Virus record (IMG/VR): IMGVR_UViG_3300022591_000461
Location: 1 to 28,595 of that record
Length of the DNA stretch: 28,595 nt
From: a virus
Direction: 5' to 3' (one strand)
Notes under the pieces: model-generated
Told to the model about the DNA's origin: nothing
Database searches by the model: none
Seen by the model: the letters and a program-made list of their open reading frames with translations, nothing else
Translations under genes and position numbers: made by a program
Part shown: piece after piece, positions 4,170 to 28,270 of the stretch
How the letters are laid out: every line of letters begins with the position of its first letter
Position numbering within the stretch: the first letter of the stretch is position 1

Positions 4170-5702
4170 TTAGAGGTCTGCTGCCAAACTATTCAACTCG
4201 TCATCATCTGGATTAGAAAAATCAATCTCGCCTGCTTTCTTACCGTCATCGAAATCAAACAAACTACCGAATGTATTTGCCGCTGGCCCACCTTGTAGTC
4301 GAGCACCTTCGAGACTCTTTAAGAATTGTGATGCATCACTAATTAAAGAAAATGCCTCGTCTTTAGTTTTAGTATTGAATAATTCTTCTACAAATGTACT
4401 AAAGTATAGAATCTTACGTGGAACCCAATCACTGAATTCAATTTCTTTCTTACCTTCAATACCCCATGCTCTCCAGTCTGGTTTATATTTTGCACATTCA
4501 ATATCCATCAATTGTTGAGCACGTTGAACAGCCTTGATATGACATTCAACATTATGACCCATCATCAATGCATAAGCAAAGCTATCCCAAGAAGTTTTAC
4601 CTTCTTTGCCAATCTTGTTTAACATGCCTGGAGCATACCAGCAGATGTCGCCCATTGTAAGTCTAGAACCAACTTCGCTTTCGAATGGAAAAGGAATGTC
4701 AGATTTAGAAAGAGCTTTAGTGTCCGGAGCCTTGTCCATAATAACTGACCAACGCTTGTTAGTATGTTGTGCGTTTGTATAAACTAATCCGTGAGCAGTG
4801 GCAATAAACGGACTTGCACAGTCAAAACTAATTGTAAGTTCTGGATTGATATGTTTGCGTAACTGACGTTGGATTTGTGTTAGATAGCAGGACCAATCAA
4901 GTTGTGCTGTACCCAAGAAGTGAATCCAGTTCTTGCCTGTAAGCATACCTTCGTCACGCATAGTCATTAAACGTCTAAGAGTGATATCCATCTTACACAT
5001 ATTAGCACCACCAAACGCCCAACCTTCTGCTTCACGCCCAGCGTATTTGCCTTTGGGATCACTAAACTCTTTAACACCGTTATACCATTTCTCAGCAGTA
5101 TCCCAGTCACTACCTTGTAGAACGTTCAACCACTTAGTTTGACCTAAACGATTCATCAAGAAGTAATCGTTATTGAAGCGTGTTTTATCTAAACAATCTT
5201 CAAATGTTTTTAATCCAGTCTTTGGACTATGAATATGGTCACAAGCCCAAGTAGGAACGTCAAGCATCATTGACCAATCAGCAGTAAGTTCAAGCCATTC
5301 TAAAATATTTTGACGTGTCTTGTTCGCGGCAGGACCTTCAAAGTTTAACCAATCAAATTTAAGAACACCTTTACCAATTTGATATCCACCAGAGTCACCT
5401 AAGATCATTGTATTGCCACGATCACGTTGTTGAATCATAGACTCTTGTGTCATACTCTTTTGTAAGTCTAACTGTGCGTGACCTGCAGAGTAAAGACCAT
5501 ATTTGTATGTAAAATATCCTTGTTCGGGATTTAAAAAGTTCATGCCTTCAATACCACGATCAAAACCTTTGGGAATACGATCATTGGGTACAAATTCTTC
5601 TAAACGTTGTTTAGCAACATATGTGCTATAAAAAGAACTGATAGCAGGTAAGTATACCGCATAGTCCTTTTGTAAGGGTGTTAAATCAATTGGTTGTTTC
5701 AT
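4170..5702 (-). CDS. TGT/DpdA-superfamily base-exchange enzyme with C-terminal clamp-binding-like motif
   Basis: A 510-residue protein with the ordered motifs of tRNA-guanine transglycosylases and the DNA-acting DpdA enzymes: GDSGGYQ (Asp103), MLDVPTW (146-152), NVLQGSDW (193-200), GWAFGGANM (227-235), IHFLGTAQLDW (260-270) and ISFDCASPF (Asp294 at the position of the nucleophilic Asp). These enzymes swap guanine for a 7-deazaguanine; DpdA does so in DNA. The Cys3His zinc site that follows the nucleophile in tRNA enzymes is absent, which favours a DpdA-like or otherwise diverged role. Residues 476-485 (NTFGSLFDFD) nearly repeat the C-terminus of the polymerase gp43, suggesting sliding-clamp contact. 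The gene lies downstream of gp43 and gp45, with a 17-base overlap to its neighbour. DNA as substrate is inferred. Confidence 0.7.
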   Translation of the reverse strand: MKQPIDLTPLQKDYAVYLPAISSFYSTYVAKQRLEEFVPNDRIPKGFDRGIEGMNFLNPEQGYFTYKYGLYSAGHAQLDLQKSMTQESMIQQRDRGNTMILGDSGGYQIGKGVLKFDWLNFEGPAANKTRQNILEWLELTADWSMMLDVPTWACDHIHSPKTGLKTFEDCLDKTRFNNDYFLMNRLGQTKWLNVLQGSDWDTAEKWYNGVKEFSDPKGKYAGREAEGWAFGGANMCKMDITLRRLMTMRDEGMLTGKNWIHFLGTAQLDWSCYLTQIQRQLRKHINPELTISFDCASPFIATAHGLVYTNAQHTNKRWSVIMDKAPDTKALSKSDIPFPFESEVGSRLTMGDICWYAPGMLNKIGKEGKTSWDSFAYALMMGHNVECHIKAVQRAQQLMDIECAKYKPDWRAWGIEGKKEIEFSDWVPRKILYFSTFVEELFNTKTKDEAFSLISDASQFLKSLEGARLQGGPAANTFGSLFDFDDGKKAGEIDFSNPDDDELNSLAADL

Positions 5703-6057
5703 AGTCTCTCGCTAATTTTGCCGTAATATCTAATTGTTGTCTTGCCTGTTCTAGATTGTCTAGTGCTATTTTAACGGCAGAGTTTTTCTCTGCCATTGCC
5801 TGCCATACTAATTCTTCGTCACGCTTTTTACGAGCCCAATCAAGCAATGATTCAGCTTCGCCGTTCAAGCCAACGCTAGCATGGGCCATGTTGAGTATGA
5901 CCCAAGTATTGCCGTCAAACACTTCCATGTTTTGACTAGAAGTATTGTATCTCATGTTGCCAACACCTTGTTGTCCTGAATAGCTGTTTACATAGGTGCT
6001 GGCATTACCATTCGTAACTGTTATATAACGGCCGGAAGGTGTAATGCCTTTAATCAT
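5686..6057 (-). CDS. Hypothetical protein with tail-fibre-like motif
   Basis: A 123-residue protein. The N-terminal half carries GITPSGRYITVTNGN and GNMRYNTSSQNMEVFDGNTW, a short motif (G-x-M-R-Y-N-x-x-x-x-x-x-E-x-x-D-G-x-x-W) common in phage fibre and bead-like virion proteins. The second half is a long charged helix (LLDWARKKRDEELVWQAMAEKNSAV..., LEQARQQLDITAKLARDYE). The start overlaps the clamp stop as TAATG. Its place between replication genes is odd for a structural protein, so the role remains open; a dual beta-plus-coil adaptor is possible. Confidence 0.65.
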   Translation of the reverse strand: MIKGITPSGRYITVTNGNASTYVNSYSGQQGVGNMRYNTSSQNMEVFDGNTWVILNMAHASVGLNGEAESLLDWARKKRDEELVWQAMAEKNSAVKIALDNLEQARQQLDITAKLARDYETTN

Positions 6058-6794
6058 TATACTGCTTGTGCTGGAATAATGTATTTGTATGATGCCAAAC
6101 CGCTGTCAAGCGTAATTTGAATAGCACCTTCGTTTGACAAACTCATCTTTGTGTTGTTTACATCTGCAATCTTCAAAATACTCAAGATTGGCAACACTGG
6201 CCAAGTCCAACCGCGATCAAGTTTACCTGCAACATTTTGTGCAAATACAAACTCACCACCGTGTGTTGATGCGTCACCAAAGATAAACTTTAAGTTACCG
6301 CCATCTGTCTTAGCAAGGAATGTTGGATGCTCATTGTTAGCACCTGCTTGGAAGTTGAAACGCTGTACTGCGGATACAGTTGGCTCCAATTCCACATCCC
6401 ACTTTACGCCACGGAATTTTACAGTTTTCATCTTTTCGTTGATGATTTCTGAATTCATAAAGCGGTAGTCGTTTTTAAAGTCGCCATCTTTGTTTTCAAA
6501 ATGCAAACCTGTTGGAATAGTTTCACCATTACGATCTGCTGTAGTGACGCTAATCTTAGCATCTTCTTTGTACTCTGCACCGTCTAACAAATATTTTAAT
6601 TTGTTTAATTGCGGCATACCAAACACACCAATCATATCTGGATATGGTGCCGATGTCTCAGCTTCCATAATAACTGAACGATCGTCAGCCATTGAATTGA
6701 TTGTAGTTTTTGTATCTGTGCCTGTAACTTTAACTGTAGTCAAGAACCCTAGGTTCTGTGTATGACTAACGATGTCTTGTAAAATGTCTTTCAT
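6057..6794 (-). CDS. gp45: Sliding clamp (DNA polymerase processivity factor, gp45-like)
   Basis: A 245-residue protein with T4-like DNA clamp features; T4 gp45 is 228 residues and forms a trimeric ring on DNA. It begins MKDILQDIVSHTQNLGF and has the repeated beta/alpha pattern of clamps, with LGFLTTVKVTGTDTKTTI, a middle FGMPQLNKLKYLL, a domain 2 segment GNLKFIFGDAS, and a C-terminal SYKYIIPAQAV. An upstream in-frame extension exists but is rejected because GGAG precedes the ATG at 6794. It lies directly downstream of gp43 and has its own promoter-like sequences. The T4 clamp also activates late transcription, which fits the late promoters nearby. It may serve gp43 and the TGT/DpdA-like protein. 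Confidence 0.85.
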   Translation of the reverse strand: MKDILQDIVSHTQNLGFLTTVKVTGTDTKTTINSMADDRSVIMEAETSAPYPDMIGVFGMPQLNKLKYLLDGAEYKEDAKISVTTADRNGETIPTGLHFENKDGDFKNDYRFMNSEIINEKMKTVKFRGVKWDVELEPTVSAVQRFNFQAGANNEHPTFLAKTDGGNLKFIFGDASTHGGEFVFAQNVAGKLDRGWTWPVLPILSILKIADVNNTKMSLSNEGAIQITLDSGLASYKYIIPAQAV

Positions 6795-6818
6795 TGAGAA
6801 TTCTCCGTGTTTAATATG

Positions 6819-6847
6819 ATTATATTTAGATCGTGAGTGAAAAGCAA
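6819..6847 (-). promoter_or_regulatory. Promoter-like region upstream of the clamp gene
   Basis: On the minus strand a TATAAT (6824-6819) lies 17 bp from a weak -35, TTGCTT (6847-6842). The same stretch also reads TCTAAATA (6830-6823), a CTAAATA-type late-promoter core. It could allow extra clamp expression early, late or both. Activity is inferred from motif spacing only. Confidence 0.4.
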
Positions 6848-6861
6848 GCCTCAAATCACTC
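6835..6861 (-). other. Hairpin spanning the gp43 stop codon
   Basis: GAGTGA and TCACTC, 15 bases apart, can pair; the gp43 TGA stop (6856-6858) lies in the first arm. No U-tract follows, so it is not a standard terminator. It may affect passage between gp43 and the clamp gene, or translation, but no function is demonstrated. Confidence 0.35.
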
Positions 6862-9525
6862 AAAATCAAATAGTTTTGCGAATGTGTTATCACTGCGTGT
6901 TTGACTGATGTCCCATTCCAAAACACCGATCAAGTTTTCTAACTTCTCGTCAATGACGGTATTTTCCATAGTGGCGTCATCAAACGGTAAGTCTTTAAAC
7001 CATTGAGGTAATCTAAGTTCATCTACAGGATATGCTACTGAAGTATATCCCATTGGATTATCTTTAACCTTACACACAATGACTTTTGCTCCGTCAACAA
7101 TACTCATAGAGTATTTGTCATTCATCATACGCTTTAAAGTATTCCAGTTTAGACTAGCACGAACGTGTCCGGGCATATTAGTCTTACCTGCTTTCTTTTC
7201 CTTTGCGGCATACTCAGTAATGTTGTTGGCTCGCTTGGGCGAACCTTTCTCCCATCCGGGTCTTGTTTTGAACTCTGTACGGAAATCAGTAATGTACTGT
7301 AATACATCCTCTTTAGCCGCACCATTTAGAACCTGTGTTAGAACTTCACTTAGGAAGTCTTGGATAACAACCGGGGTATCTGAACGCTTGAGGTCAAGCC
7401 CCATGGCTTTAATTTTGCCTGGCTTGCCGTCGATGTCGGCTCGTTTACCTTCTTTGTCGTAATAGAGAACTGCGTATCGCTTCTTAGTAATGAACAAACC
7501 TTTTGATGCGACAATTTCTCGTCCTGCTTTGATAACTTCGCCTCTGGTTTTTGGGCAGTGGAAAGCATCTTGCATGAATTTTGGGAAAGTTCCATTTACT
7601 TCTTCTCCTATGGTATCGTAAAGTTCAATAACTGCTTCTCTACTCCAAGGAATAAGACCTTTGTCGATCTCTTTCTTTAGTGTAGTGTATGCTGAGAAAT
7701 AACAAGAGTCTGTATCGCCATAGATAATTGCCTTACCTACGTGATCATTAGTTCCTGTAATAATTTCATTTACTTTACCGGCCATATGTTGAGCAATCGC
7801 TCTTCCGGTTAGTGTAGTTGATTGACCAATGCGGTTATCAAAAAAGCGACAACCTGGATTTAAAATAGCACCATATAGACTGTTCAAATTGATCTTCTTG
7901 ACCAACTGACGCTTGTCCCAATATTCTTCTTCGATTTTATTGCCAGCCGCAATACATTCTTTGAGTTTTTTCTGCATGTCTTTGCGTTCAGCGTACCAAC
8001 GCTTTAACAGACCTGGAATGATACCTTCTTTTTCGTAAGTAAAGATAGTACCGTTAGCACTAATCATCCAAGGTTGATTGCTTTCAAAGATTAAATCATA
8101 CACTTGTGCGCCACTTAGAGTATCTTCACCACCGCCTTCCCAATCGATAGTAATTTCGCGACCAACATCTCGATCCATAACAGCGGTATACTCTAAAGAA
8201 CCAAAGATACCTTCCCATGCACCAGCAAAGCTACGACCTTTAGCCATTTCTGCTTCAATAAATGCCTTTGTTCCGTCTTGACGTAACTGACCAACAATAG
8301 TTTCTGGGCCCATGTTCAGGGCACGAATAGCAGACGGATACAGTGAGTTGATGTCTAACGAACCAATCCACTCGTGAATTCCTTTCTTAGGAAACGCAAC
8401 ATACGCACCAGCTGCCGCAGTATCAACCCCTGCTTCACGAGAAATACGGTTTGGAACAATCATTCCACGCTTGTGAGCTTCGTTGATAATTGCCTGTTCA
8501 GTTACAGCAACAGCACCCATTGTAGTTTGTAGCAATACAGTACATTCATGTGCTAGTGTGTTAGCAAGATCCAAGAACTTTAACTTCTTATCAAGTTTTT
8601 CCAACAACATACAGTCTTGCCTGTTGTATTCAATAAACTTGCGGAAGTCATTGTTGTATAACTGATCAAGTGTGCCTTCGTAAACTGTTTTGTTCTCACC
8701 AATTTCCATTTCGCCGATAGCATCTAGTCGATATGTATGGCGTTCTTCATAGGTATACTTTCGATACAGCTCCAAACTATCCATATGCACACGACCTACA
8801 AAGTCGTAAGTGATAGCAGTCTTGCCGTACTTCTCGTATTCACGCTTCTTAGGAAATTGATTCCATAAGCAGAATCTACGAGTGTCTTCTTTACTTAGAA
8901 CCTTAGTAACACGATTGACTGTATACGGAATATCAAAGCCTTCTGAGTTCCAACCACTTAGCACATCTGCATCTTCAATAAGATTTAAGAATGTATCTAG
9001 CATCTCGCCTTCGGATTCGAATAGCATCGTGTTTGGAAATTCTGCAACTTGTTTAGTTGCTTCTTCCATTGACATTTTTTTAGGCGGGATAGCCAAACAT
9101 ACCATAGTTTCCATCCACTGTAGGTAGACAGCAATCGCGGTAATTGGCATGAATGCATCTTCGGGTGATGCGTAGCCACGTTCTGGATCGAAGTCTACCT
9201 CAATGTCAAACCATGCTACGTTTAGCTTTGGTGCATCTGCATTGAGATAATTATCCTCTAAACAACGATAAATTGGATTGATGTCGCTTTCGTAAAGTTT
9301 ACGATTGGAATGAATAGCAAGTTCTTTGCGATGTTCTTTAACATTCTTGCTTGTAACACGACTAAGGGGTTCGCCCTTGATTGAAAGGAATTTACCTTTA
9401 GGGTCTTGATAATAAAAGATATGACGAGCTGGATATTCTTTATAATGTCTATTGCCTTGAGCATCACGCTCAACGACATTGATCATATCCTGCTCTCTAT
9501 CATAGAAAGCGTCTACGTAACTCAA
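6856..9525 (-). CDS. gp43: DNA polymerase, T4 gp43-like family B, with 3'-5' exonuclease
   Basis: The replicative polymerase, 889 residues (T4 gp43 is 898). Exonuclease motifs: FDIEVDF (Asp107, Glu109), SGWNSEGFDIP (Asp198) and YNRQDC (about 300-305). Polymerase motifs: A, SLDINSLYPS (Asp391); B, KKINLNSLYGA (about 543-553); C, YGDTDS (Asp604, Asp606), followed by a KKRY motif. The last ten residues, NTFAKLFDFE, match the type of C-terminal peptide by which T4-like polymerases bind the sliding clamp. The start is a TTG at 9525: an AGGAGAAC ribosome-binding site lies 6 bases upstream and no ATG is closer to the conserved N-terminus. The clamp gene follows 61 bases downstream. All active-site residues look intact. 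Confidence 0.97.
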   Translation of the reverse strand: MSYVDAFYDREQDMINVVERDAQGNRHYKEYPARHIFYYQDPKGKFLSIKGEPLSRVTSKNVKEHRKELAIHSNRKLYESDINPIYRCLEDNYLNADAPKLNVAWFDIEVDFDPERGYASPEDAFMPITAIAVYLQWMETMVCLAIPPKKMSMEEATKQVAEFPNTMLFESEGEMLDTFLNLIEDADVLSGWNSEGFDIPYTVNRVTKVLSKEDTRRFCLWNQFPKKREYEKYGKTAITYDFVGRVHMDSLELYRKYTYEERHTYRLDAIGEMEIGENKTVYEGTLDQLYNNDFRKFIEYNRQDCMLLEKLDKKLKFLDLANTLAHECTVLLQTTMGAVAVTEQAIINEAHKRGMIVPNRISREAGVDTAAAGAYVAFPKKGIHEWIGSLDINSLYPSAIRALNMGPETIVGQLRQDGTKAFIEAEMAKGRSFAGAWEGIFGSLEYTAVMDRDVGREITIDWEGGGEDTLSGAQVYDLIFESNQPWMISANGTIFTYEKEGIIPGLLKRWYAERKDMQKKLKECIAAGNKIEEEYWDKRQLVKKINLNSLYGAILNPGCRFFDNRIGQSTTLTGRAIAQHMAGKVNEIITGTNDHVGKAIIYGDTDSCYFSAYTTLKKEIDKGLIPWSREAVIELYDTIGEEVNGTFPKFMQDAFHCPKTRGEVIKAGREIVASKGLFITKKRYAVLYYDKEGKRADIDGKPGKIKAMGLDLKRSDTPVVIQDFLSEVLTQVLNGAAKEDVLQYITDFRTEFKTRPGWEKGSPKRANNITEYAAKEKKAGKTNMPGHVRASLNWNTLKRMMNDKYSMSIVDGAKVIVCKVKDNPMGYTSVAYPVDELRLPQWFKDLPFDDATMENTVIDEKLENLIGVLEWDISQTRSDNTFAKLFDFE

Positions 9526-26814: not shown

Positions 26815-27138
26815 TTATTCTTCTAACAAATCGATTTTATTAGGAGCACCATTCCATTGCTCAGCATCGGGCAATGCAGGTTTTCTTTTGGTAATGACAG
26901 GCCACTTATTGCTTAGTCGTTGATTTAAATCAGTCCAAAATACTACATCAATATCGGTATTGTTGTCCGGAACAATAGCATCAATAGGACATTCTGGGAC
27001 ACATACTCCACAATCAATACATTCAGATGGATCAATACTTAAAAAGTTTGGACCTTCATGAAAACAATCAACAGGACAAACTTCAACGCAATCAGTATGT
27101 TTACACTTGATGCAATTTTCTGTTACTAGATAAGTCAT
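26815..27138 (-). CDS. 7Fe ferredoxin, [3Fe-4S][4Fe-4S] type
   Basis: A 107-residue electron carrier with the Cys layout of Azotobacter-type ferredoxin [18 protein letters not shown] supplies Cys9, Cys17 and Cys21, and [12 protein letters not shown] supplies Cys40, Cys43, Cys46 and Cys50. Thus Cys9/17/50 would hold the 3Fe cluster and Cys21/40/43/46 the 4Fe cluster. The C-terminal extension ([16 protein letters not shown]) matches bacterial FdxA proteins, not plant-type ferredoxins of cyanophages. The start overlaps the clamp-loader stop as ATGA. Redox partners are unknown; the phage's A-type carrier could help mature it. Confidence 0.93.
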
Positions 27139-28052
27139 TCAATCCTCGAGAGTCTAATCAAAGTTGCGGCTAAGTTGATTTCTGCATCTGCACAAAACGC
27201 TTGATCAGTTAGCCCTTGTTTAATAATAAGAACTGCGGTATCTTGATTTTTGCTATCGCCAAAGATACCAACATTGTCGTACAACCAACGATATACTTCG
27301 TCCATTTCTTCTACACGAATCTTTCCGCATAGGAGTTTGCGACCTTCTTGAATCTTACCGGCCTTAAACAATTCGACCATTTCAAACTTCCACTCCATTT
27401 GTCCACTATCTTCTTTAGTAGGAACATGAAGCTTGCCTTCGCTTACGTTTTGTTGTAACAAATTTATGCACTTACGCAGGTCCGGATATGCGCTTGACAC
27501 ATATAGATCAAGTGTTTCTAAATCAAACTCGATATTTTCTTCAACTAAGATAGTTGCCGCACGGGCTGTAAATTCTGTTTGATCTAGTTTAGTAAAGTGA
27601 AACTGTTGGCAACGACTGTGTAACGCTGGAACAATTTTATTGGGACTGTTACAGGTTAAAATAAATCTAGCATAACTTGAATATTCTTCAATGATGCCTT
27701 TTAACGAATCTTGGGCATTAGGACTTAGACGATCAGCCTCGTCTAGTAGCACAACCTTAAACGGTCCCCAAGCAATACTGCTAATAAAAGGAATAATCCT
27801 GTCGCGGATAAAATCAATACTAGTTTCACGACTAGCATTGACTTCTAAAACATCTGCGTCTTGAATTTCTAATTCATTCAACAATGCTTTTGCTAGAGTA
27901 GTCTTGCCAATACCTGGGCTGCCACTTAGCAACAGATGAGGAATTGATTTATCTTTGACCCAAGTCTCAACTTGTCTGCGTTGACTGTCATCACGCCAAA
28001 CATACCCGTTCAAATTTTTAGGACGATATTTTTCTACCCATAATTCAATCAT
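27135..28052 (-). CDS. gp44: Clamp loader large subunit (gp44-like AAA+ ATPase)
   Basis: A 305-residue AAA+ protein that opens and loads the sliding clamp. It begins [18 protein letters not shown], typical of loader subunits; 8 codons of upstream in-frame sequence are rejected because this ATG makes ATGA with the previous stop. Walker A is GSPGIGKT (44-51), Walker [12 protein letters not shown] (100-110), and the SRC motif with arginine finger is at 146-148 ([10 protein letters not shown]). A C-terminal helical collar follows. T4 gp44 is 319 residues. The small subunit gp62 is not recognised in the window. It lies far from gp43 and gp45, unlike T4. Confidence 0.93.
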
Positions 28053-28270
28053 ACAATTTTTCCTAATCCTAACCAAATAAGTTGGTCTAATTCAGTTTGG
28101 TAATCTTTACCAAGCCTACGTTTTTCATAAATTGATGCAAGTATTTCTTTTCCATCACCGTAGTCAGTGGCACCTGCTCCTCGGCTTTCTAATTCTTCTA
28201 CTAAATCATCTGTGTCAAACTCTGACAGATCAACGTCTACTTCAACTTCTGTGTAGATAGTTTTATACAT
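28049..28270 (-). CDS. Acidic hypothetical protein, 73 aa
   Basis: A small protein with an acidic N-terminal half (VEVDVDLSEFDTDDLVEELESRG) and a more basic helical end (SIYEKRRLGKDYQTELDQLIWLG). The stop overlaps the gp44 start as ATGA, so translation is coupled to the clamp loader. AAGGAAG precedes the ATG. No motif is recognised. Its position next to gp44 could mean a replication-related role, but nothing in the sequence shows it; gp62 is much larger and is not a match. Confidence 0.65.
   Translation of the reverse strand: MYKTIYTEVEVDVDLSEFDTDDLVEELESRGAGATDYGDGKEILASIYEKRRLGKDYQTELDQLIWLGLGKIV

Follow-up and report, generated by a model that had tools for sequence, protein, structure and literature searches.

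The 28.6-kb viral fragment IMGVR_UViG_3300022591_000461 of IMG/VR (positions 1–28,595; hereafter the window) encodes, close to its DNA polymerase and sliding clamp, a TGT/DpdA-like guanine transglycosylase (TGT). The question that this locus raises is why a base-exchange enzyme should bear, in its C-terminal tail, a peptide that nearly repeats the end of the polymerase. Judged from its sequence and from analogy with phage T4, the tail peptide is most likely a clamp-binding motif, and the enzyme most likely acts on DNA while bound to the clamp. The features concerned, all on the minus strand, are the following:

6856–9525 (minus): family B DNA polymerase of the gp43 type (PF00136, PF03104, and phrog_262; matches to T4 and RB69 gp43)
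6859–6888 (minus): NTFAKLFDFE, the C-terminal clamp-binding peptide of the polymerase
6057–6794 (minus): sliding clamp of the gp45/PCNA type (phrog_12062; PCNA fold; homologs annotated as PCNA or sliding clamp)
5686–6057 (minus): small open reading frame (ORF) of 123 amino acids lying between the clamp and TGT genes (weakly matching three function-unknown PHROGs)
4170–5702 (minus): TGT/DpdA-like guanine transglycosylase of 510 amino acids (DSGG at D103 and FDCASP at D294; TGT fold of its homolog L061)
4248–4277 (minus): NTFGSLFDFD, a clamp-binding-type peptide in the C-terminal tail of the TGT, residues 476–485
4173–4247 (minus): acidic tail end after the TGT peptide (DGKKAGEIDFSNPDDDELNSLAADL), very variable among homologs

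The clamp gene probably begins at the ATG at 6794 and not at the GTG at 6926, because phrog_12062 and the closest homologs start there.

A peptide shared by polymerase and transglycosylase

As an initial annotation of the window had stated, the polymerase end and residues 476–485 of the TGT agree at seven of ten residues, and the clamp gene lies between the two genes, where the 123-amino-acid ORF is found as well. At the nucleotide level, 21 of 30 positions are identical. Conserved codons of the two stretches differ synonymously, and a recent transfer of polymerase sequence to the TGT gene is therefore rejected. When the polymerase end was compared with all ORFs of the window, its best match was the TGT peptide (BLOSUM62 score of 41, the next being 28). 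By chance, at least seven identities in ten would arise with a probability of 2.6e-7 at a given position, about 1.3e-4 in a protein of 510 amino acids, and about 0.005 across every ORF of the window; when the whole set was shuffled 200 times, seven identities were reached three times.

Conservation of the motif

Homologs were gathered from IMG/VR (568 coding stretches confirmed in the first scan alone, with 80 loci kept per scan), phage records (13), and prokaryote genome assemblies (8), and the 207 complete phage TGTs among them yielded 151 distinct tails. The pattern [FMILVY]-x-x-[LIM]-F occurs in 123 of these tails, compared with 11.7 +/- 3.3 (maximum of 26 in 200 rounds) after shuffling within each tail, and some [LIMV][FY] is kept in 143. 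In the clade of the window protein and in a second clade (L157 and L165–L244, about 38 per cent identical to the window protein), analyzed separately, entropy is 0–0.6 bits at F, L, and F and mostly 2–3 bits at residues past the motif; the stretch just ahead of the motif is likewise conserved in both. The polymerases of the homologous loci nearly always end in F-x-x-L-F-x-F/W plus zero to two residues (61 distinct 9-mers in 224 loci). The gene order polymerase–clamp–TGT is retained in most loci, and the 123-amino-acid ORF is missing in relatives in which clamp and TGT are adjacent.

The position of the motif shifts. In most TGTs it is followed by 15–39 mostly acidic residues, whereas six (L173, L191, L195, L208, L212, and L243) end with the motif itself, the acidic stretch of L208 lying ahead of it. 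In sequence terms, such shifting is the behavior of a short linear motif. A scoring matrix derived solely from polymerase ends and run over 5886 non-polymerase ORFs (redundant loci counted) gave scores of at least 12 to 101 of 232 TGT ORFs versus 31 of 5654 others, the latter mostly antisense; its top match outside the TGTs is the N-terminus of the gene adjoining the TGT gene of Vibrio phage 2.275.O. Where the window protein has NTFGSLFDFD, some TGTs of its clade carry YGNKDLFDWGD, a sequence similar to the polymerase end of the Vibrio phage.

Distant pairs of polymerase and TGT show the same core ($ marks a C-terminus): AHFDSLFGW$ and NSFNSLFDVD in PA5oct, NNTDLFDW$ and NNNDLFGW$ in Vibrio phage 2.275.O (last residues), FNDLFDWN$ and VFSDLFDID in L156, and TFDELFSFG$ and MFDQLFTENG$ in L157, the last two being contigs of metagenome-assembled genomes. 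A search of IMG/VR yielded nothing closely related to the TGT of PA5oct or of the Vibrio phage. The initial annotation had regarded a lack of the motif in close homologs as decisive against clamp binding; the motif is instead kept across very diverged phages.

That the likeness arose by chance or is a functionless relic is thus hardly credible. F-x-x-L-F is short and weakened in some members, but its frequency relative to the shuffled tails and its retention in very diverged phages, at altered positions, already contradict this explanation.

Several observations were made alongside. A 196-amino-acid ORF (L094:12233–12820) has EFNSLFDVEE, a TGT-tail peptide, near its C-terminus, as a single case. 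In PA5oct, the polymerase gene (L001:8605–13831) is split by a homing-endonuclease-like gene, and its second part opens with an apparent intein end; PA5oct gp170 (L001:13912–14658), annotated as a structural protein from mass spectrometry, is a sliding-clamp homolog.

Folds of the enzyme and the clamp

Neither the TGT nor the clamp could be linked to a solved structure by sequence profiles, and neither Pfam nor PHROGs models matched the window TGT protein at an E-value of 1e-3; fold comparison alone provided a solved relative. The TGT of L061 is 82 per cent identical to that of the window. In this locus a single frame, interrupted by stops, runs through polymerase, clamp, and TGT, which allowed read-through fusions to be modeled with AlphaFold, the clamp as a monomer. 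The clamp–TGT fusion model has a mean predicted local distance difference test (pLDDT) score of 88.7. Its clamp part matches PCNA chains (Foldseek E-value of about 1e-10), and its TGT part aligns with the TGT of T. maritima (2ash) over 305 residues (Z of 20.5, root mean square deviation of 4.6). This alignment spans model residues 257–706, corresponding to TGT residues of about 11–460, and D103 (DSGG) and D294 (FDCASP) are invariant across eight aligned homologs. The motif lies outside the folded domain, as the alignment ends at about residue 460 and the tail has a pLDDT under 50. A further replisome gene of the window is located apart from this cluster:

27135–28076 (minus): clamp-loader large subunit of the gp44 type (Pfam matches to AAA and Gp44_lid)

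Clamp binding and its alternatives

The T4 clamp, gp45, is bound by the ends of gp43, gp55, and gp33, which are highly alike and exchangeable and one of which functions when placed internally (PMC2988020); gp43 ends in KASLDFLFG and gp55 in SPSLDFLYEAND. Because T4 clamp peptides are alike, exchangeable, and functional internally, the TGT tail is most likely clamp-binding too. That the peptide is of the polymerase's clamp-binding type, as proposed in the initial annotation, is borne out by the sequence match to the cognate polymerase ends. Like gp55 and gp33, the TGT shares the C-terminal clamp peptide of the polymerase, with an internal position tolerated; unlike it, these two T4 proteins serve late transcription, and the T4 peptides read SLDFL[FY], whereas those described here read FxxLF[DES][FVW].

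We consider it likely that the enzyme, acting as a DNA guanine transglycosylase, docks a polymerase-type peptide on the clamp and exchanges guanines in new DNA. As the polymerase makes DNA, the clamp would be left behind. The TGT peptide sits on a flexible C-terminal tail, and its F-x-x-L-F core usually precedes a residue that is acidic or small and then a hydrophobic one. By analogy with T4, this peptide would dock in a hydrophobic patch of the phage clamp. The docked enzyme would be held on newly made double-stranded DNA and would swap guanine in the new duplex for a 7-deazaguanine base supplied by the phage's FolE/QueD/QueE-type pathway. The sequence match, the TGT and PCNA folds, the wide conservation and mobility of the motif, its absence from tail-less bacterial homologs, and the precursor genes of related genomes are observed; clamp binding, DNA and not tRNA as the substrate, and action behind the fork are inferred.

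Several observations weigh against this reading. In the fusion models, the TGT tail (742–763) and, as a control, the polymerase tail (1–41) mostly have a pLDDT under 50, so that neither tail is placed with confidence. In some members of the clade the motif is weakened (NKSLVEFED, NISNSLFVEVD, and STFNQHFYEE), with the polymerase end still canonical. The TGT of the Sinorhizobium phage Phosso ends in VEGLF$, at best a weak motif, and its relatives end in no more than GLF or GIFS. No such motif is present in DpdA2 of KVP40, a T4-like phage in which the DpdA2-type protein is encoded beside preQ0 genes, although this phage has a gp43-type polymerase. In T4, binding of alpha-glucosyltransferase to the clamp barely affects the glucosylation share, which is mostly set by expression (PMC13216743). 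Finally, the initial annotation had looked to co-variation between the tails of the TGT and its own polymerase, and we saw none beyond the shared F-x-x-L-F core. Its proposal that the enzyme rides on the clamp hence draws support from the TGT fold, the PCNA fold, the type of motif, and conservation, but not from fine co-variation.

The T4 glucosylation result bears also on the possibility that clamp binding is regulatory, with the TGT and the polymerase competing for the clamp, or with the TGT coupling modification to late transcription in the manner of gp55 and gp33. T4 does use the same peptide for transcription coupling (PMC2988020), and the small effect of clamp binding on the glucosylation share (PMC13216743) would suit such a role. 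We nevertheless judge it unlikely, as the complete catalytic domain, both catalytic-type Asp motifs, and the precursor genes make the tethering of a catalyst a simpler purpose.

The unplaced docking in the models would also agree with the peptide binding some other partner that recognizes the polymerase end, such as a single-strand binding protein, a helicase loader, or a capsid or packaging protein. This is very unlikely, given that the end of gp43-type polymerases is an established clamp-binding site in T4 and RB69 (PMC2988020) and that the clamp gene adjoins both genes in most relatives.

Five TGT homologs from bacterial chromosomes (L159–L163; Shinella, Rhizobiales, Ciceribacter, and Azospirillum) lack a tail, their sequence stopping with the catalytic domain, and no gp43 or clamp homolog was found within about 10 kb of them. 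Their nearest counterpart is the Phosso TGT, which stands at the weak-motif end and whose gene is distant from the Phosso clamp gene, and the contrast with phage TGTs may therefore partly reflect subfamily history. Three of them (L159, L160, and L163) are encoded in divergent orientation beside a large function-unknown ORF of about 560–900 amino acids, possibly as a separate bacterial system.

The inserted base

Ten related genomes (those behind L001, L002, L003, L028, L035, L062, L115, L144, L152, and L227) were surveyed for deazaguanine synthesis. FolE is present in all ten and a QueD-type PTPS in nine; a convincing full QueC was found only in Vibrio phage 2.275.O. For this reason, the inserted base may be a carboxy- or plain deazaguanine, perhaps a derivative of 7-carboxy-7-deazaguanine in place of preQ0.

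The genomic context supports insertion of 7-deazaguanine into DNA rather than tRNA. It would be highly improbable for the enzyme to be an ordinary TGT acting on tRNA, with a tail whose purpose is unrelated to DNA modification: the fold is that of tRNA TGTs, but the tail carries a replisome peptide, the gene lies beside those of polymerase and clamp, and the PA5oct system for deazaguanine synthesis and incorporation is listed among DNA modifications (PMC7824862).

Other proteins carrying the peptide

A genome-wide scan for FxxLFxF returned mostly antisense chance matches and an FkbM-family methyltransferase (PF05050; L283:4001–5062) of a 353-kb relative, whose exact C-terminus is NQFESLFDFG$. 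Nearly every legible homolog of this protein (L282–L321) retains the peptide, and the methyltransferase is, by its sequence, probably another clamp client.

Similar ends occur elsewhere. In Phosso, whose polymerase ends in FNDLFTF$, a glycosyltransferase (gene 306, L369:753–1625) ends in QLSDLFDFG$, and a protein of unknown function encoded near folE (gene 228, L368:1688–2095) ends in NLNDLFDFG$; the shared DLFDFG$ resembles the polymerase end. In Vibrio phage 2.275.O, the gene directly after that of the TGT (gene 469, L003:13732–14844) encodes an amidoligase-like protein with the N-terminus MFNELFDFN; its amidoligase Pfam match falls just below the curated cut-off, and the protein could attach an amine to carboxy-deazaguanine. 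Gene 204 of the same phage (L370:714–938) encodes a cysteine/histidine-rich protein of 74 amino acids, the end of which, MLSSLFEW$, resembles that of the polymerase.

These peptides hint that several modification enzymes share the clamp. A bolder extension, which we regard as possible but doubtful, is that in jumbo-type phages the clamp serves as a tool belt for the TGT, the FkbM methyltransferase, the glycosyltransferase, and the amidoligase-like protein, so that synthesis, base exchange, and decoration would proceed in one moving assembly.

Relation to known systems

The initial annotation presented the link between base exchange and clamp as undescribed. For a transglycosylase this holds as far as the literature searched goes, in which no report joining DpdA or TGT to a clamp was found; clamp binding by a phage DNA-modification enzyme as such is already known from T4, whose alpha-glucosyltransferase attaches to gp45 (Sommer 2004; PMC13216743 cites that work and confirms the binding by pull-down). 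Like the TGT, that enzyme is proposed to modify DNA along with replication from the phage clamp; unlike it, it places glucose on hmC and performs no base exchange. A polymerase-like tail was sought in it and none was found, the protein ending in CFKEQFDIITK.

The phage DpdA and DpdA2 proteins (PMC6884629) are likewise TGT-fold enzymes of phages with deazaguanine synthesis genes. They differ in that a clamp link is unreported for them, that KVP40 DpdA2 is without the motif, and that Pfam and PHROGs models miss the window protein; tblastn with three members of the present family (window, Vibrio, and Phosso) did not find phages with KVP40-type DpdA2.

Among cellular enzymes, DNMT1 offers a parallel: a short PCNA-interacting peptide holds this DNA-modifying enzyme to the sliding clamp at the fork, although as a eukaryotic methyltransferase it is unrelated in fold and chemistry.

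If the enzyme does work from the clamp, tethering would explain both how phage transglycosylases reach guanines before host nucleases cut and how they would spare host DNA, as modification would be limited to DNA replicated by the phage replisome. Two purified proteins and a single peptide would suffice to test such replication-coupled base exchange directly, and the peptide itself would offer a sequence signature for further clamp clients in large phages.

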